Positions 6,680 through 63,507 of a stretch of 64,000 nt of DNA are shown in pieces. A model generated the notes under the pieces. That model made no database searches. It was not told the DNA's origin and worked only from the letters and a program-made list of their open reading frames with translations. This DNA is from Candidatus Endomicrobium neocapritermitis (GTDB taxonomy: Bacteria > Elusimicrobiota > Endomicrobiia > Endomicrobiales > Endomicrobiaceae): assembly GCA_009778325.1 (NCBI GenBank), contig WRJZ01000045.1:1-64000 (forward strand). The letters are read 5' to 3'. The translations under genes and the position numbers were made by a program. Within the stretch, counting starts at the first letter, position 1. Every line of letters starts with the position of its first letter.

Positions 6680-6775
6680 GCGTAGATGCATGGATGCGCG
6701 GATGCATGGCAACGACTTTTTGTCGTTGTATTTGATATGCGTCTACGCATCCATGCATCTATTCATCTGCTGTTC
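6680..6775. repeat. Palindromic element, family E
   Basis: The left arm is of CGTAGATGCATGGATGCG type and the right arm of GCGTCTACGCATCCATGCAT type, made of 8-mers GCATCCAT/ATGGATGC. They flank a GGCAACGACTTTTTGTCGTT hairpin core. It lies between argC and rsmI, and the rsmI stop is at its edge. Confidence 0.88.
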
Positions 6776-12871: not shown

Positions 12872-12978
12872 CGAAGCTCGGAAGCTCGGAAGTTCGGCAG
12901 CTCAGCAGCTCGGCAACGGTTTAAACAAACACAGCTCCTCCGAGCTGCTGAGCTGCCAAACTTCTGCGCTTCTAAAAA
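12872..12978. repeat. Palindromic element, family B
   Basis: The arm of GAAGTTCGGCAGCTCAGCAG type is matched by GAGCTGCTGAGCTGCC-type sequence on the right. A short GGCAACGGTTTAAACAAACA core lies between. It fills the gap between dprA and topA. Confidence 0.88.
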
Positions 12979-28084: not shown

Positions 28085-28218
28085 AGTTTGGAGTTTGAAG
28101 TGTGGAGTGTGAAGTTAATGTGTTTTCGCAAAGCGAAAACCTAAAACAGGTTTCGGCAGGAACTAAGTTCCGCCGAAACACAACAACTCCACTCTTCACA
28201 CTTCAAACTTCACTCTGC
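28085..28218. repeat. Palindromic element, family C
   Basis: Arms GAGTTTGAAGTGTGGAGTG and ACTCTTCACACTTCAAACTTC flank the hairpin GTTTTCGCAAAGCGAAAAC and a larger hairpin GTTTCGGCAGGAACTAAGTT with its complement. It sits between metV and metF and supplies the metV stop codon and the region just upstream of metF. Confidence 0.9.
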
Positions 28219-28820
28219 TTTTTAGGCTGTATATATTGTTTCAAAAATTTATCAAGTTTGTTGTTCTTTTTCAACTTTTCGTATATCAAAACCCATGCGC
28301 AATCTTTTGTCTGGTCCGTTTCGCATTTACCGTTCACAAAACTTCCGCAAGGTCCGTTTAAAAGCCCTTTCGCGCATCTTGTGCGCGGGCATATTCCTTC
28401 TGTTTCGGAAAGTATGCATGTGCCGCATATACTGCAGAATTGCCGGTGAACGCCTATTCTTTCCGTGCTGCCCACATATTTTGAGTCAAGCGCGGAAACA
28501 ATATCTTTTCCGCTTATTTTTTCAACTGACTGTCCTCCGGCTCCGCAGGAAAGCATAATGACGGCGGACGCGTCCTGAAAATCGGAAATTTTAACCAAAT
28601 CTTTTTTTGCAAGCCGCATATCGCAGGCTGAATCCAATATTACGCTGCCTAAAACCTTCTTTCCGTTCTTTTCAAGAAACTCTTTGATTTCTGCGACGGC
28701 TTTTTCATCGCCGGTGCCGCACTTTGAGGCGCAGCTGCCGCAGCCGACTATAAAAACAGTCTGCCTTCCTTTAAGGTTATTTAATACTTCTTCTTGATTT
28801 TTTTTTGTTGTTATTATCAT
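28203..28820 (-). CDS. metV: Methylenetetrahydrofolate reductase C-terminal/MetV-type protein
   Basis: 205 aa Cys-rich protein. N-terminal GCGSCASKCGTGD and the C-terminal cluster CSICGTCILSETEGICPRTR (about 133-152), with CAKGLLNGPCGSF, are typical of MetV, which forms a complex with MetF and carries a 4Fe-4S cluster and zinc in acetogens. It is the upstream partner of metF. The last residues (KQSEV*) are encoded by the adjoining family C repeat, so the natural C-terminus may be altered. Confidence 0.88.
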   Translation of the reverse strand: MIITTKKNQEEVLNNLKGRQTVFIVGCGSCASKCGTGDEKAVAEIKEFLEKNGKKVLGSVILDSACDMRLAKKDLVKISDFQDASAVIMLSCGAGGQSVEKISGKDIVSALDSKYVGSTERIGVHRQFCSICGTCILSETEGICPRTRCAKGLLNGPCGSFVNGKCETDQTKDCAWVLIYEKLKKNNKLDKFLKQYIQPKKQSEV

Positions 28821-39744: not shown

Positions 39745-41910
39745 TTATTTTTTATCATTGTCGTCGGATTCATCAGCGGCGTTCCGAACATGTTGGTCTG
39801 ACACGGAAACACTCACGACTTCAAATGAACCTTTAAAATTAAATTTTCTTGAAGACACATTTATTACATGCGGGATTTTGCTGCTGAAAAACTGTTTATA
39901 TTTTACAGGCTCAACAGATACTCCGTCTTTTGTAATTCTCTCAACCATTCCGGTTTCGGAATTCAAAACAAGTTCTATATCGTTTGCCTTATATGTAATT
40001 CTTTTGTCTTTTTGACCTACTGCATTGTTTTCGAACTGCTTAAAAAAGTCCGGAGAAAAAATATTGGAAGCAAAAGATAAAAGTCCTCTGAACTCATCCG
40101 GAATTTCATTTTCAATCGCTCTCGGCTCAAATGTTATTTTTCCGTCTTTAATATATATCATCGCGCCGCCGAGAAAAAATTTCGAAGGTATGCCTATGCT
40201 TATGCCTTCGCCTTTCACATAGTTAAAATAAAAATATCCTTTAACATTATAACTGTGAATGTTGATTTTCATTTTATATCCGGCTTTCATCGAAAAAAGT
40301 TTTTTGTAATTGCTGTCCGCCCTGAATAAAACAGCATTATAAAAATCATGCTGAGGCAATTTTGCCTGCACTAAATCCAGCTTCTGCCTGGCGCTTTTTT
40401 TACCTCCGGCGTCATATGCCAAAGCATAAGCAACCCATGCGTCATTAATTTTTCCCTGTTCAACGTACACGTCTCCGAGATGCTCGTAAACAACGGGATC
40501 TCTGGTAATATTTGCCGCGGTTACTATAAGTTTTTCTGCAAGATCATACTTACCCTGCCTGTAATACAGCCATCCTAAAGAATCAAGATAAGCGCCGTTG
40601 TGAGGTTCGAGAGTTACGGCCCTGTTCAAAAGAATTTCCGCTTCCGCGAGTTTTATATTTCTGTCGGCATATGAGTAGCCGAGATAATTCATAGCCCTTG
40701 TATGGTCTGGATTTATTTCCAGCACACGCAAAAACGCTTTCTCCGCAGCTTCAAAATTGCCGATTTTGTCCAAAGCGCTTCCCATAAAATAATGCGCGTC
40801 GGCAAAATCCGGGTTCAGGCTTATCACTTTTTCAAATGTTTTAATTGCTTTATCGTATTTTCCCCAGTCAATATAATTTAATCCCTGCAGATATAAAATC
40901 TCGTAATTTAAAGGATCTTTACTTGACGCCACCTGCAATTTTTTGTCGGCTTTCGCATAATTTTTTAAAAGGGAATAATAATATCCGAGCCTTGCCAGAA
41001 TCGCGACATTGTCTTTCTGTCTTGACGATAAATATTCAAACTCGGCGGCTGCTTTCTCGATATTGCCCAGCTTTTCATATATCACGCCAAGCCAATATGA
41101 CGCCATTTCGGTTTCATTGCCGCTGCCGCTAAAACCTTTTTTTGCTTTCAAAAACGCGTCTCTTGCTTTAGCGTATTCCTGATTCTCATAATATGAGCGC
41201 CCCAGATACATAAGCGCATGCATATTATCCGGAAAAACTTCGACGAATTTTTCATATTCCGCTATTGCCATTTGAAAATTTTTAACGGTTTCATAAATTC
41301 TGGCCTTTGCAAGATAAGCTTCCCGGGCGTCAGGCTTTAGCTCAATAACTTTATCATATGATTTCAACGCTTCTTCCGTCATATTAAGCCTTTCCTGCAC
41401 CAGCGCCAGCTGAAAATAACCGGCCGCCGAATCAGGCTGCTGCTGTAAAAATTTACTCCAGTATTCCGCGGATTCTTCAAGCTTGTTATCAGAGTAATAG
41501 TATGCGGCAAGATACACCGTGGCGGTTTCGTTGTCAGGGTCAAGTTCAAGCGTTTTTTCCCAAAACATCCTTGCTTTATCGGGCTGGTTTGCCATAAGAT
41601 AAAAAGTCGCCAGAAAAGCCGTAGTTTTTGGATTTTCTCCGTCAAGTTTTTCTATTTTTTCGGCAGTATCAAAAGCTTTTTGATTATTGCCGGACTGCCA
41701 GTACAAGTACATAAGATCTTTAAGAACGGCAAGCGCGTCCGAATCAATAGCGGCAACTTTTTCGTAATCTTTCTGCGCTAAGTCAAAATCTCCCGCCTTA
41801 AGTGCCAAAACGCCTTTAAGGTAAATTTTGTAAGCCTCGTAATTCGCGCCGTGCACAAAGCCGGACTGAGAAACCAGCGTAAAACACAAAACAAAAATAA
41901 TTTTTTTCAT
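39745..41910 (-). CDS. Large secreted TPR protein
   Basis: 721 aa. A signal peptide (about 1-21) is followed by about 14 tetratricopeptide repeats (about 25-515; for example PDFADAHYFMGSALDKIGNF and ALKSYDKVIELKPDAREAY). A C-terminal non-TPR domain (about 530-700) rich in beta strands resembles the lipoprotein carrier/outer-membrane sorting type of fold. It is probably a periplasmic scaffold or outer-membrane assembly factor. Its start overlaps the rimI stop by 4 nt. Confidence 0.82.
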   Translation of the reverse strand: MKKIIFVLCFTLVSQSGFVHGANYEAYKIYLKGVLALKAGDFDLAQKDYEKVAAIDSDALAVLKDLMYLYWQSGNNQKAFDTAEKIEKLDGENPKTTAFLATFYLMANQPDKARMFWEKTLELDPDNETATVYLAAYYYSDNKLEESAEYWSKFLQQQPDSAAGYFQLALVQERLNMTEEALKSYDKVIELKPDAREAYLAKARIYETVKNFQMAIAEYEKFVEVFPDNMHALMYLGRSYYENQEYAKARDAFLKAKKGFSGSGNETEMASYWLGVIYEKLGNIEKAAAEFEYLSSRQKDNVAILARLGYYYSLLKNYAKADKKLQVASSKDPLNYEILYLQGLNYIDWGKYDKAIKTFEKVISLNPDFADAHYFMGSALDKIGNFEAAEKAFLRVLEINPDHTRAMNYLGYSYADRNIKLAEAEILLNRAVTLEPHNGAYLDSLGWLYYRQGKYDLAEKLIVTAANITRDPVVYEHLGDVYVEQGKINDAWVAYALAYDAGGKKSARQKLDLVQAKLPQHDFYNAVLFRADSNYKKLFSMKAGYKMKINIHSYNVKGYFYFNYVKGEGISIGIPSKFFLGGAMIYIKDGKITFEPRAIENEIPDEFRGLLSFASNIFSPDFFKQFENNAVGQKDKRITYKANDIELVLNSETGMVERITKDGVSVEPVKYKQFFSSKIPHVINVSSRKFNFKGSFEVVSVSVSDQHVRNAADESDDNDKK

Positions 41911-42458
41911 TTTATTATCTTCCTCAAAAGTATAGCGTCTTCATCGGTATAGTATTTTTTTCTTATTCCGATTTTCTCAAAGCCTAAGGATAAGTAAAGA
42001 TTTTGCGCCGCCCCGTTGCTTTCCCTTACTTCAAGAAAAATATTTTTTGATTTTTCTTTTCCCGCGTCATTTTCCATATACTCAAGCATTGTTCTGGCTA
42101 TGGAGCGCCTTCTGAAATCCGGATGAACGGCAATATTAAGAATTTCCGTCTCCCCTTCTATTGTCAAGTATATGCAGAATGCCGCGATTTTATCGCCTTC
42201 CAAAGCAACTTTAAAACTCACTTTTTCGTTTAAAGCCGAACTCATCAGCATATCTTTTGTCCAAGGCTTTTTAAACGACTGTTCCTCTATTGATATTATA
42301 TCATCTATATCGTCTTTTGAGAAATCCCTGATTTCAAGACAATTACGAATTACGAATGACGAATTACGAATCAACGGCAACCCCTCATCCTCTTGCTTCG
42401 CAAAAGGCGAGGGAAAACACATCTTTGTTTTTCTTGTTTTTGATTCGTAATTCGTCAT
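41907..42458 (-). CDS. rimI: Ribosomal-protein-alanine N-acetyltransferase RimI, with repeat-derived N-terminus
   Basis: 183 aa. A GNAT domain from about residue 41 (LEIRDFSKDDIDDI) to the end, with acetyl-CoA loop HPDFRRRSIARTML and the RESNGAAQNLYLSLGFEKIG motif, identifies RimI. Residues 1-40 are encoded wholly by a family A palindromic element. Every in-frame ATG or TTG upstream of the domain lies in that element: ATG at 42458 and 42422, and two TTG codons. Translation must therefore begin in repeat DNA. ATGA at 42455-42458 couples it to pdxA. Confidence 0.9.
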   Translation of the reverse strand: MTNYESKTRKTKMCFPSPFAKQEDEGLPLIRNSSFVIRNCLEIRDFSKDDIDDIISIEEQSFKKPWTKDMLMSSALNEKVSFKVALEGDKIAAFCIYLTIEGETEILNIAVHPDFRRRSIARTMLEYMENDAGKEKSKNIFLEVRESNGAAQNLYLSLGFEKIGIRKKYYTDEDAILLRKIIK

Positions 42459-42478
42459 TCGTAATTCGTAATTGCCTT
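42338..42478. repeat. Palindromic element, family A, spanning the pdxA-rimI junction
   Basis: Left arm AATTACGAATTACGAATGAC and right arm ATTCGTAATTCGTCATTCGT are reverse complements. The core CCCCTCATCCTCTTGCTTCG matches the core at 5530. The element encodes the first 40 residues of RimI, the last residues of PdxA (ITNYE) and the shared stop/start ATGA. Confidence 0.92.
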
Positions 42479-43480
42479 TTCCGCTGCGTATAAAATTGAT
42501 TCTATCATTGCATCCGCGTCGGCTTTGCCTTTTCCGGCTATGTCAAAGGCCGTTCCGTGCCCCGGAGAAGTTCTTACAAACGGCAAACCTGCCGTAACAT
42601 TTACGATTTTTTTTGCGTCTATGCATTTCAAGGGTATCATTATCTGATCGTGATACATGCCGCATATTAAGCCGAATTCGCCGTTTTTTGTTTTAAGCCA
42701 CGCGGAATCAGCTGGCAAAGGTTTTGAAATATTAAACCCTGATTTTTTTAAGATTTCATATGCCGGGAAAATAATTTTTTTCTCTTCTTTCCCCAATATT
42801 CCGTTATCTCCGGCATGAGGATTTAATCCGCACAGAGCGATTTTGACGGAAGAGTGGAGAGACGGCAACGACAAAACGTCTTTATTTTTTGTCTTATCTT
42901 CACTCTTATTTAAAAATGAAACTGCAAGACTTACTGTCTCAACAATATCTTTGGATTTTAATCTTTTTGAAACTTCCGAAAGAGGAATATGCCTTGTAAC
43001 CATAACGCTGTGAATATTTCCGCACACCATCATCATTGCGGCATTTTTGCTTTTGGTTAAAGCCTGAAGAAGCTCCGTATGTCCGGGATAATTCACGCCG
43101 GCAAGCTTAAAAGATTCTTTTGATACCGGAGCGGTAACCAAAGCATCTGCTTTACCGTCAAGACAAAATTGCGCGGCAGCCTTAATAGCGCTGTAAGCCG
43201 CTATCCCCGCTTTTTTTGAAGGCTTACCCAAAGCAACTTTACCGACATTTGAAGCAGCTATAAATTCGTAATTGCCGTTGTTTGCCGTTCGCCGTTGATT
43301 CCCCCGATTTAGACGCTCGGGGGCAGGCTCCATTCGTAATTCGTCATTCGTAATTACCGTTCCAAAAACTACAGGGCTGCAAACTCTTTGAACTTTCAAA
43401 GAATTTACAGCCCTGTAAACTATTTCCGGTCCTATTCCCGCAGGATCTCCCATAGTAACCGCTATGCGGGGCTTAGACAT
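42455..43480 (-). CDS. pdxA: 4-hydroxythreonine-4-phosphate dehydrogenase PdxA with two repeat insertions
   Basis: 341 aa. It acts in pyridoxal phosphate synthesis. AVTMGDPAGIGPEIVYRA, the metal ligands in NYPGHTELL, LNPHAGDNG and MYHDQIMIPLK, and SPGHGTAFDIAGKG are intact. Residues about 40-74 are encoded by a family A element with a nested family G piece, and about 193-210 by a family C element. Both are in frame and lie between conserved blocks. The C-terminal ITNYE* comes from another element. It is probably still functional, since the core is open and complete. Confidence 0.9.
   Translation of the reverse strand: MSKPRIAVTMGDPAGIGPEIVYRAVNSLKVQRVCSPVVFGTVITNDELRMEPAPERLNRGNQRRTANNGNYEFIAASNVGKVALGKPSKKAGIAAYSAIKAAAQFCLDGKADALVTAPVSKESFKLAGVNYPGHTELLQALTKSKNAAMMMVCGNIHSVMVTRHIPLSEVSKRLKSKDIVETVSLAVSFLNKSEDKTKNKDVLSLPSLHSSVKIALCGLNPHAGDNGILGKEEKKIIFPAYEILKKSGFNISKPLPADSAWLKTKNGEFGLICGMYHDQIMIPLKCIDAKKIVNVTAGLPFVRTSPGHGTAFDIAGKGKADADAMIESILYAAEKAITNYE
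42852..42905. repeat. Family C palindrome inside pdxA
   Basis: AGAGTGGAGAGACGGCAACG on the left is matched by TTATCTTCACTCTT on the right, with a GACAAAACGTC middle. It encodes the stretch with EDKTKNKDVLSLPSLHSS in frame. Confidence 0.78.
43260..43364. repeat. Composite family A element with nested family G inside pdxA
   Basis: TTCGTAATTGCCGTT lies on the left and CATTCGTAATTCGTCATTCG with TTACCGTT on the right. Between them is CCCCCGATTTAGACGCTCGG with GGGCAGGCTC, a family G-type palindrome that appears to have split the arm GATTC/CATTCG. It is in frame in pdxA. Confidence 0.85.
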
Positions 43481-45602: not shown

Positions 45603-48600
45603 TTATTTAAAATAAAGTTCCAGTTTTTTCAGAAAATGTCTTGCAAATTCAACGGAAGAAATACTTATTGTATTTTTTTTCAGTTTAAAAGCATAATGTT
45701 TTCCGGCTATAAATTCAATCATATCAGCGTAATCGCCTATAAGCTTGGGAATATCCGCTTTTGAAAAATCCGCGTTTTGCGAAAAATACACATATATATA
45801 GTTGTTATCTTCCGATACTCTTTCAATTTTAAGTTTTTCCGCTTCAAGCCTTAAAACTGTGATTTCAAAGAGCCTTTTGGTTTCATCCGGTATTTTTCCG
45901 AACCTGTCCAAAAGTTCGCTTTTTATTTTTTCAATATCTTCCGGGCTTTGGGCGTCAGAAAGCTTTCTGTAAAATAAAATTCTTATGTCCTCGTCTTCAA
46001 TATAATTTTGAGGTATTAAAGCCGCAACCTGAAGATCTATTTCAGTGCCGGACTCTTTTTCGGATTCAAATGTTTCGCCTTTTATTTTCCTGCCTTCTTC
46101 TTCAAGAAGTTTGGCGAACATATCATAACCTATATCTCTAACAAAACCGTGCTGATTCGCGCTTAAAATTCCGCCGGCGCCTCTTATTTCCAAATCTTTA
46201 AGCGCAAGTCTGAAGCCAGAGCCGAGCTCGCTGAACTCTTTCATTGCTTCAAGCCTCTTTATCGCTTCATCGCTGAGATTTTCATCTCTGTAAAATAAAT
46301 AACAGTAAGCTTTTCTTTTATCTCTTCCGATTCTTCCGCGCAGCTGGTAAAGCTGCGAAAGACCGAAATTTTCGGCCTCTTCAATTATCATTGTATTAAC
46401 TGACGGGATATCCAATCCGGACTCTATAATAGTGGTGGCAAGCAGCACGTCAAGTTCCAAATTTGTAAACTTCCACATAATATTTTCTATATCTCTTGAC
46501 TTCATCTGACCGTGAATAACGCCCAACTTTATATCCGGAACAAGTTTTTTAATTTCATCGGCTTTGGTAAGAATCGTTTCTACTCTGTTGTAAACATAAA
46601 AAACCTGCCCGTTTCTTGCAAGCTCCGCCTGTATAATATTTTTGATAAGCTTCTCATCATACGGCGATAAAGCCGTTTCTATCGGAAGCCTTCCGAAAGG
46701 AGGCGTTTCTATTACGGATAAATCTCTAAAGCCAGACAAAGCGGATGATAATGTTCTGGGTATCGGCGTCGCGCTAAGCATAAGCATATCGATATTTTTC
46801 TTTATGGATTTTATTTTCTCTTTCTGCTTAACGCCGAATCTGTGCTCTTCGTCAACAATCAGCATTCCGAGATTTTTAAATTTTATGTCTTTCTGCAAAA
46901 GCCTGTGCGTTCCGACTACTATATCAACTTTGCCCTCTGAAATTTCTTCAATAGTTTTTTTCTGCTCGGCTTTGCTTTGAAATCGGCTCAGCACGGAAAT
47001 TTTAGTCGGAAACGGCGAAAGCCTGTTATAAAAAGTATTAAAATGCTGCTGCGCCAAAACCGTTGTCGGCACTAAAACCGCGGCCTGCATATTATCCTGC
47101 ACGACTTTAAAAGCGGCGCGTACCGCGACTTCCGTTTTACCGTAACCGACGTCGCCGCAAATTAATCTTTCCATTGGATACGGCTTTACAAAATCGTTTT
47201 TAACGTCTTCTATCGCTTTCATCTGGTCGGGCGTTTCATCATAAGGGAACGCGTCTTCAAGTTCTTTTTCCCACGGAGTTTCACGGCTTAAAGGATTTCT
47301 TTTGACTTTGCTTCTTTCGGCGTAAAGTTTTAAAAGCTCTTTTGCGAACTCCGCAACGGCTTCCCTCGCGCGCGACTTTACCCTTTCCCACGCGCCGGTA
47401 TCCATAGAATAAAGTTTCGGCTTTACGCCTTCAACGCCTATATATTTTTTTACGGTTTTAATTTCTTCGGGCGGCACATACAGTTTATCGCCTTTTCTGT
47501 ACTCTATGCAAAGATATTCGGAAGTTTTATCTTCGCGCGAAATGGTTTTCAATCCGACATAGCGACCTATGCCGTACTTTTCGTGGACAACATAATCGCC
47601 GGACGAAATTTCCCAAATACCTTCAAGCCTTCTTCCACCCTGCACTTTCGGAAAACTTATAGGCTTCTTTTTATAAAGCATCTCGCGGCTTGACAAACAT
47701 GCCAGATTCTCTTTTTCAAGATAAAACCCCTGGGATAAATTTCCGTACAAAAATTCAGGAAGCTCATAATCCCAGCGGTTCTCGTGAAAAATATCCTGTA
47801 TTCTTTCCCTTTCGCCGTCATTAGCGCAATATATTTTTATGTTAACGCCGTCACGGGCAAAATTTTCAAGCGAGTTTATAAAAAACTTTATATCCCCCTG
47901 AAACCCGCCGGCTAAGCCGGCAAAACTTTTATATCCCTGATACTGCGCGTTTTTATTCAAAGGAGCGTTTATGATAATCTCATGTTCGGCATATTGTTCT
48001 TCTTCATCTTTTGATATTGAAAAATCGAAGAACAACAACGATGCGGGGATGTAGGGATGCGGAGAGGCAGGGAAACGGCTTTGTGTCGTTTTGTCGTTAC
48101 TCTGCATCTCTGCATCCCTGCATCCCTGCATCCCAAAATATTCTTTAATCGTAGCAGTATCATTTTGAGGGTTTACAGGCAGAACTTTTATTTCTTCAAT
48201 AAACGTATTGGAAAGCTGGCTTCCCGGGTCAAAAATTCTTAGAGCCTCAATAATATCGTAATCAAATAATATTCTTACCGGCGCATTGTTGGCGGCAGGC
48301 CAAATATCTATTATATCGCCTCTCACGGCAAACTGAAGCCTGTCTTCAACAAAATTCATTCTCGTATAACCAAGACCGACAAGAGAACGAATCAATTCTT
48401 CAAATTTATGTTTCTGTCCCTGCTTAAAAACTATTCCGCTGTCCGAATCAGGCGCCACAACAGGAGAATTTAAAGATAAATCGCTCCCGCAAAGTATAAA
48501 ATTATTTAAGTTTTTGATTTTATCCGCGGCAAAAGCTCTTTGCTGCGCGTCATCCAAAGGATAGAGAATGATGGGAATTGATATATTATCTTTGCCAAAA

Positions 48601-48773
48601 AACGCATTCAAATCATCATAAAAGGAACTTAACTCCTCGTCTTTGACAAATAGAAAAGCGCGCAAGTTTGGATTTAGGGTACCCCCCTCGGAACTTAGTT
48701 CCTCCAAAATGCGTTTAAACAAATAATGGGCTTTACCGCTGCCCCCGACGCCTGACAAATATATTTTACTCAT
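45603..48773 (-). CDS. mfd: Transcription-repair coupling factor Mfd with in-frame repeat insertion
   Basis: 1056 aa. Mfd removes stalled RNA polymerase and recruits UvrA. A UvrB-like N-terminus, the RNAP-interaction domain (SGDYVVHEKYGIGRYVG), the helicase with Walker A ICGDVGYGKTEVAVRAAF, LVPTTVLAQQ and VDEEHRFG, and the C-terminal TRCF domain are all present. Residues about 213-247 (CRDAEMQSNDKTTQ, then PHPYIPASL) are encoded by a family E palindrome and interrupt the N-terminal module without breaking the frame. A smaller palindrome-bearing piece sits near residues 21-33. No ribosome site is visible. Confidence 0.96.
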   Translation of the reverse strand: MSKIYLSGVGGSGKAHYLFKRILEELSSEGGTLNPNLRAFLFVKDEELSSFYDDLNAFFGKDNISIPIILYPLDDAQQRAFAADKIKNLNNFILCGSDLSLNSPVVAPDSDSGIVFKQGQKHKFEELIRSLVGLGYTRMNFVEDRLQFAVRGDIIDIWPAANNAPVRILFDYDIIEALRIFDPGSQLSNTFIEEIKVLPVNPQNDTATIKEYFGMQGCRDAEMQSNDKTTQSRFPASPHPYIPASLLFFDFSISKDEEEQYAEHEIIINAPLNKNAQYQGYKSFAGLAGGFQGDIKFFINSLENFARDGVNIKIYCANDGERERIQDIFHENRWDYELPEFLYGNLSQGFYLEKENLACLSSREMLYKKKPISFPKVQGGRRLEGIWEISSGDYVVHEKYGIGRYVGLKTISREDKTSEYLCIEYRKGDKLYVPPEEIKTVKKYIGVEGVKPKLYSMDTGAWERVKSRAREAVAEFAKELLKLYAERSKVKRNPLSRETPWEKELEDAFPYDETPDQMKAIEDVKNDFVKPYPMERLICGDVGYGKTEVAVRAAFKVVQDNMQAAVLVPTTVLAQQHFNTFYNRLSPFPTKISVLSRFQSKAEQKKTIEEISEGKVDIVVGTHRLLQKDIKFKNLGMLIVDEEHRFGVKQKEKIKSIKKNIDMLMLSATPIPRTLSSALSGFRDLSVIETPPFGRLPIETALSPYDEKLIKNIIQAELARNGQVFYVYNRVETILTKADEIKKLVPDIKLGVIHGQMKSRDIENIMWKFTNLELDVLLATTIIESGLDIPSVNTMIIEEAENFGLSQLYQLRGRIGRDKRKAYCYLFYRDENLSDEAIKRLEAMKEFSELGSGFRLALKDLEIRGAGGILSANQHGFVRDIGYDMFAKLLEEEGRKIKGETFESEKESGTEIDLQVAALIPQNYIEDEDIRILFYRKLSDAQSPEDIEKIKSELLDRFGKIPDETKRLFEITVLRLEAEKLKIERVSEDNNYIYVYFSQNADFSKADIPKLIGDYADMIEFIAGKHYAFKLKKNTISISSVEFARHFLKKLELYFK
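48036..48132. repeat. Palindromic element, family E, inside mfd
   Basis: Left arm ATGCGGGGATGTAGGGATGC and right arm CTGCATCCCTGCATCCCTGC are complementary. The core holds GTGTCGTTTTGTCGTTAC, as in B, D and E elements in gaps. About 97 nt are in frame with mfd. Confidence 0.9.
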
Positions 48774-60969: not shown

Positions 60970-61082
60970 AAATGAAGCTCAGAAGTTCGGCAGCTCAGCA
61001 GCTCGGAGAAGCTCTGGTCGCTTTGTCTTTGTTGTTTGCCGTTGCCGAGCTGCTGAGCTGCCGAACTTCTGAGCTTCTGCCG
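60970..61082. repeat. Palindromic element, family B
   Basis: Left arm AAGCTCAGAAGTTCGGCAGC and right arm GAGCTGCTGAGCTGCCGAAC are reverse complements. Core GGTCGCTTTGTCTTTGTTGT with GCCGTTG lies between. Confidence 0.9.
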
Positions 61083-61085
61083 TTA

Positions 61086-61244
61086 TTATATTTTTTCAAA
61101 AGAATCTTTGCCGACTCCGCACACGGGGCAAACCCAATCTTCAGGCAGTCCTTCAAAAGGAGTTCCCGGGGCTACTCCTGCGTCAGTATCGCCGACTTCA
61201 GGATCATAAATATAACCGCATGCCGTACATTTCCATTTTTCCAT
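61086..61244 (-). CDS. rub: Rubredoxin
   Basis: 52 aa, a classical rubredoxin: [19 protein letters not shown] and then [13 protein letters not shown] give the two C-x2-C pairs for one Fe. Start chosen by a GAGGAGG ribosome site 7 nt upstream. It is the likely electron donor for the flavodiiron protein and rubrerythrin. It is placed between fur and nifS. Confidence 0.97.
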
Positions 61245-61740: not shown

Positions 61741-63406
<1,666 letters not shown>

Positions 63407-63407
63407 A

Positions 63408-63507
63408 AGATAAGATGATAGGATGATAAGAGGTTAAGCAACGGCAAAAACAAGAACGGCGCTTCTCTTATCCTCTTATCATCCTATCATCTTATCTTCT
63501 GCCGTTC
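63408..63507. repeat. Palindromic element, family D
   Basis: AAGATAAGATGATAGGATGA on the left is the reverse complement of TCATCCTATCATCTTATCTT on the right, over 25 bp. Core AACGGCAAAAACAAGAACGG. This is the cleanest palindrome of the window. Confidence 0.93.

Follow-up and report, generated by a model that had tools for sequence, protein, structure and literature searches.

A palindromic repeat holds the pdxA stop codon and every candidate rimI start codon in an Endomicrobium genome

The window analysed here is a stretch of 64,000 nucleotides from Candidatus Endomicrobium neocapritermitis, whose genome is a 2.38-Mb assembly of 54 contigs. On its reverse strand pdxA is followed by rimI, and a hairpin-forming element of about 140 bases lies across the junction (Table 1). 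The element belongs to a repeat family that we call family A, and a second, shorter piece of the family is found within pdxA itself.

Table 1. Features of the pdxA-rimI locus, in window coordinates
Feature	Position	Strand	Evidence and remarks
pdxA, 4-hydroxythreonine-4-phosphate dehydrogenase, 341 aa	42455..43480	-	TIGR00557, 314 bits, above cutoff; last residues and stop element-encoded
Second family A piece, within the pdxA reading frame (VITNDELRM)	43312..43362	-	Repeat search; alignment with relatives
Family A palindromic element	42336..42478	.	Spans the pdxA-rimI junction; arms 42336-42374 and 42440-42478, core 42375-42439
ATGA overlap	42455..42458	-	TGA that ends pdxA overlapping the first ATG available to rimI, within the variant heptamer ATGACGA
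Second in-frame ATG	42420..42422	-	Without Shine-Dalgarno
Shine-Dalgarno-like ATGAGGGGT and TTG starts	42372..42388	-	ATGAGGGGT at 42388-42380, -8.0 kcal/mol, 5 nt before TTG 42374; second TTG at 42380
CTT codon at the ancestral rimI ATG position	42338..42340	-	Alignment with G001, G002 and G004; RimI alignment
rimI, ribosomal protein S18-alanine N-acetyltransferase, 183 aa from ATG 42458	41907..42458	-	TIGR01575, 119 bits, above cutoff; alignment of 10 relatives

A repeat search of the window resolved the element into two arms of 39 nt, 97% complementary and built from ATTACGA heptamers, around a core of 65 nt. This confirms the proposal of an earlier, sequence-only reading that a family A element spans the junction. 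The junction transcript folds with -85.6 kcal/mol (z = -12), and the 16-mer ATTACGAATTACGAAT matches the window 19 times at up to two mismatches against 0.2 expected; the palindrome is thus not a product of chance. Across the genome the same 16-mer has 493 matches (246 + 247) at up to one mismatch and its reversed control none. The surroundings of the junction gave no match to Rfam at gathering thresholds. The insertion looks recent, as the 30-nt heptamer arrays show no difference between the two arms.

The element carries the only stop of pdxA. The C-terminus of PdxA reads YAAEKA-ITNYE, followed by the stop TGA at 42457-42455, and since there is no earlier in-frame stop, the gene must be read into the element. 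The rimI frame crosses the core and the right arm (SSFVIRNC) before it reaches LEIRDF, the beginning of the conserved protein; residues 1-40 are encoded by the element, and the CTT at 42340-42338 is codon 41. Four in-frame ATG, GTG or TTG codons precede the RimI fold (ATG 42458, ATG 42422, TTG 42380 and TTG 42374), and all are inside the element. The next one beyond it is ATG 42251, at residue 70. A start there would remove the first GNAT strand and helix, which the AlphaFold model places at residues 41-45 and 48-61. Every usable start of rimI, like the stop of pdxA, is now part of the element. Its supply of the ITNYE ending and of RimI residues 1-40, as well as the lack of an in-frame start between it and the GNAT domain, had been noted from the letters and stood up to this analysis.

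The overlap of the two genes was also correctly recognized as repeat DNA. The ATGACGA heptamer is the consensus of a subfamily, with 59 exact 24-mers in the genome, and occurs in both arms of 14 of the 19 full copies. The ATGA start of rimI therefore appears co-opted rather than tailored, and we reject the idea that the heptamer was made for rimI.

Related termite-gut Endomicrobium (Elusimicrobiota) preserve a junction without the window's element. In G001, the nearest relative, and in G002 and G004 of the same genus, a short spacer separates pdxA from rimI. The G001 junction reads GCAAAA TCA TAA GAGTTATACA ATG GAAATCAGAGATTTC, with rimI opening as ATG GAA ATC AGA GAT TTC, and that of G002 reads GCAAAA TAA ACT ATG GAAATAAAAGATTTT, with rimI opening as ATG GAA ATA. 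The spacer of G004 is longer and likewise free of the palindrome. The window has GCAGCGGAAAAG, the element, and then CTT GAA ATC AGG GAT TTC. It aligns cleanly with the relatives on either side of the element, and their RimI proteins begin M(E/K)I where it has CTT; in all ten aligned relatives, the RimI start corresponds to residue 41 of the window's protein. Comparing the junction between genomes, as the sequence-only reading had proposed, thus revealed that the ancestral stop and ATG are gone from the window. Relative to G001, about 20 bp of ancestral DNA including both codons would have been lost, although the relatives' spacers themselves vary.

A 401-base query across the junction was compared with 77 genomes of the family. 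Besides repeat copies elsewhere, relatives match only bases 1-118 on the pdxA side or 266-401 on the rimI side, so that, among the 77, the insertion here is unique to the window's genome. A frameshift or sequencing error near 42340 had been named as something that might expose a start within the gene. The alignment with G001 is free of gaps from GAAATC on and no single indel yielding an ATG was seen, and a frameshift of this kind is rejected.

The predicted structure of RimI suggests an addition to an otherwise intact enzyme. Model confidence (pLDDT) is 42-50 for residues 1-40 and about 95 from residue 41, and the 40-residue leader is probably disordered. The dN/dS of rimI against G001 is 0.14, a value that mostly reflects the time before insertion, because the element looks recent, and that is no proof of a working rimI today. 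Amino-acid changes are not in excess on the window's rimI branch (7 versus 8).

How RimI is started is suggested by the relatives. The rimI genes of G001 and G002 lack a useful Shine-Dalgarno sequence and begin 10 nt and 3 nt, respectively, after the pdxA stop, so they resemble a translationally coupled gene. The ATGA of the element reproduces this geometry. ATG 42458 is inside the 39-bp stem, and the closest stretch that resembles a Shine-Dalgarno sequence is a weak one at a distance of 15 nt. Given the arrangement in the relatives, termination-reinitiation at the ATGA overlap is the most likely way in which RimI is started. Among the individual codons, we give ATG 42458 a little better than an even chance and TTG 42374 a clearly smaller one, with another start or poor translation least favored.

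We therefore have good, though not full, confidence in the following account as a whole. A member of a high-copy, apparently non-autonomous Endomicrobium palindrome family would have come to occupy the short gap between pdxA and rimI, where it holds the stop and usable starts. A ribosome finishing pdxA would melt the left arm of the hairpin, as it needs to in order to reach the TGA at 42457-42455, stop there and reinitiate on the overlapping ATG 42458. RimI would thus be an otherwise intact enzyme extended by a leader of 40 residues that is probably disordered. Co-option of the repeat's ATGA may simply have been tolerated, or it may by chance have kept the ancestral translational coupling.

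Alternatively, RimI could start in the core at TTG 42374 (or 42380) by means of the element's own Shine-Dalgarno sequence, GAGGATGAGGGG, which would leave a leader of 12 to 14 element-encoded residues and make the ATGA incidental. The strong anti-Shine-Dalgarno pairing (-8.0 kcal/mol) and 5-nt spacing ahead of TTG 42374 speak for such a start, but TTG is a weak start codon, GAGGATGAGGGG is itself predicted to pair within the core hairpin, and rimI in the relatives relies on coupling rather than on a Shine-Dalgarno sequence. We regard this alternative as unlikely, if the most serious one.

Reinitiation at the ATGA would also be beside the point if the insertion had effectively silenced rimI, with decay to follow. 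In favor of this, some bacteria can do without RimI, the ancestral ATG has been lost, the new starts lie under a very stable hairpin, and the insertion looks recent. Against it, the reading frame is uninterrupted across element and gene, amino-acid changes are not in excess, and an overlapping ATGA start is present, and we consider silencing improbable. An assembly or sequencing error, with the element put in the wrong place or the junction wrongly joined, is very improbable: family A is abundant in this 54-contig assembly and some of its sites are at contig ends, but both flanks are syntenic with G001, G002 and G004 around the element, its arms agree, and other copies are sensibly placed, at gene ends and in frame.

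The sequence-only reading had gone on to state that the element is translated and has created a new start site. It was right that the PdxA stop and every candidate RimI start are supplied by the element, and the relatives that lack the element retain the ancestral stop and ATG; translation from the element's rimI starts, and with it that of residues 1-40 and the use of a new start, is what we infer. The creation of one new start also needs qualification, since at least two starts in the element compete (ATG 42458 and TTG 42374) and the ATGA is a consensus that was co-opted, not made.

Family A was surveyed in 60 stretches of the genome and the window, a sample rather than every copy. The survey yielded 91 sites, 41 of which have both arms, always facing inward; the two-arm copies have the edges AACGGCA/TGCCGTT and variable cores. 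A pattern combining edge and arm has 144 matches in the window's genome, has few matches in G001, G003 and genus g11, and has none in G002 and G004. Of 60 Elusimicrobiota relatives surveyed, eight have the family A pattern, and multiple matches are confined to two genera of the family. Several conserved proteins include a single arm in their reading frame: ValS, a beta-ketoacyl synthase, a TrpB-like enzyme, a radical SAM protein (two copies) and a TPR protein. Of the 91 sites, only the pdxA-rimI junction has all starts of a gene, one identified by both its protein family and its relatives, strictly inside a full element. A large putative secreted protein (L108:1787-3733) contains a complete two-arm element, in frame and close to its N-terminus; the protein sequence reads MK, 48 residues and then LALALFLSAQ, and a paralogue (L111) has a single arm at the equivalent place.

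Family A elements are often placed at gene ends. By raw count, the outer edge of an element is within -2 to +3 of the end of the gene at about 50 of 78 gene ends. A conservative control, in which the element was excised and only non-disruptive positions were allowed, left 25 placements at stop codons against 10.65 expected, a 2.3-fold excess (stretches L070-L129 and the window). Dense gene packing therefore explains much of the proximity to stop codons, and we conclude that tight packing together with purifying selection accounts for much of the edge placement. A real preference of the elements for stop codons is possible; an overwhelming choice of stop codons as targets is rejected, given how far the excess shrinks under the control. 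By eye, several far edges of family A elements abut purine-rich stretches that resemble Shine-Dalgarno sequences.

In behavior, family A resembles the Rickettsia palindromic elements (RPE), although its anatomy differs and we do not file it as RPE. RPE are palindromes of about 100-150 bp in several families that occur between genes and in frame within housekeeping genes, where they add a repeat-encoded peptide (PMC10969869, PMC2229807). Family A is likewise a many-copy palindrome of about 100-150 bp, with 41 two-arm copies among the 91 sites, and is found in frame in conserved protein genes (ValS, ketoacyl synthase, TrpB-like, radical SAM and TPR). It differs in that it is found in another phylum and has arms of tandem heptamers. 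In addition, most of its sampled in-gene copies are single arms, and the full element at the junction replaces a stop and a start instead of residing inside one protein.

Other repeats share some of these features. Bacterial MITEs with open frames (ERIC/RU-1 and the 107-bp Correia element) are short, non-autonomous inverted repeats that form host-gene fusions and stable mRNA hairpins (PMC2229807). Family A resembles them in its terminal inverted repeats (AACGGCA...TGCCGTT), its lack of a coding gene and its 144 edge-plus-arm matches; no partner transposase was identified for it. No target-site duplication was obvious by eye in family A flanks, and the junction shows a net loss of about 20 bp. 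The TAACTGA heptamer repeats of Beggiatoaceae, Microcystis and Bacteroidetes form degenerate arrays against gene starts that overlap upstream stops (PMC4679880), but they are direct repeats and mostly upstream of the start, whereas family A has two arrays arranged as a palindrome that contains it. REP/REPIN sequences with RAYT are comparable in that family A palindromes occur at gene ends and the genome has three Y1/RAYT-like transposase genes; the arms of family A differ as longer heptamer arrays. One family A element (L097:1801-1903, C47 locus) immediately precedes a RAYT-like Y1 transposase gene, the C52 transposase locus (L162) has no family A repeat nearby, and there are repeat-bearing genomes without a transposase match. 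We therefore do not claim RAYT-driven mobility.

A search of the literature available without subscription turned up no account of repeats of this kind in Endomicrobia, and family A appears to be undescribed, although the principle is already known from Rickettsia. The junction offers a comparative case, with the ancestral state in close relatives, in which both the stop codon of a conserved gene and all possible starts of the gene after it come from a mobile-type repeat. It adds Elusimicrobiota to Rickettsia as a group with coding palindromes and indicates that a repeat containing ATGA can enter a translationally coupled gene pair with both frames unbroken. It is also a warning for annotation, as residues 1-40 of this RimI and the C-terminal few of this PdxA derive from the repeat and not from the genes.

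Repeats recur at other places in and around pdxA. The PdxA loop at 43312-43362 carries inserts in several species (L061, L062, L063 and L064 were compared), in which the heptamer family differs per species and yet the edge at the start of the insert is similar (GGCAATT-like). Just 3' of pdxA, G005 (L036) has a palindrome of another family with 33-nt arms and the pdxA stop inside the left arm, and Ca. E. embiratermitis (L034/L064) has a weaker octamer array, again of another repeat family. An in-frame octamer palindrome (TGCATCTC words) is present at 48005-48134 inside an ORF named Mfd-like from its sequence (45603-48773); the same site has a different palindrome family in G001 and none in G002.

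We tentatively speculate that Endomicrobia carry a wider class of palindromes made of degenerate 7- or 8-base words that sit near-exactly at stops or in protein loops and share AACGGCA edges, with arm words swapped between species at the same site, as at the pdxA 3' end, the pdxA internal loop and mfd. If so, such palindromes would alter the ends of genes, their stops and their starts again and again throughout the lineage. The window itself has further palindrome families with differing 7- or 8-base words (2609-2726, 6683-6761, 12881-12972, 28085-28221, 60974-61086 and 63405-63506). Some of these share GCCGTT/AACGGC edges, and G004 has a clean empty site where the window carries the element at 60974-61077.
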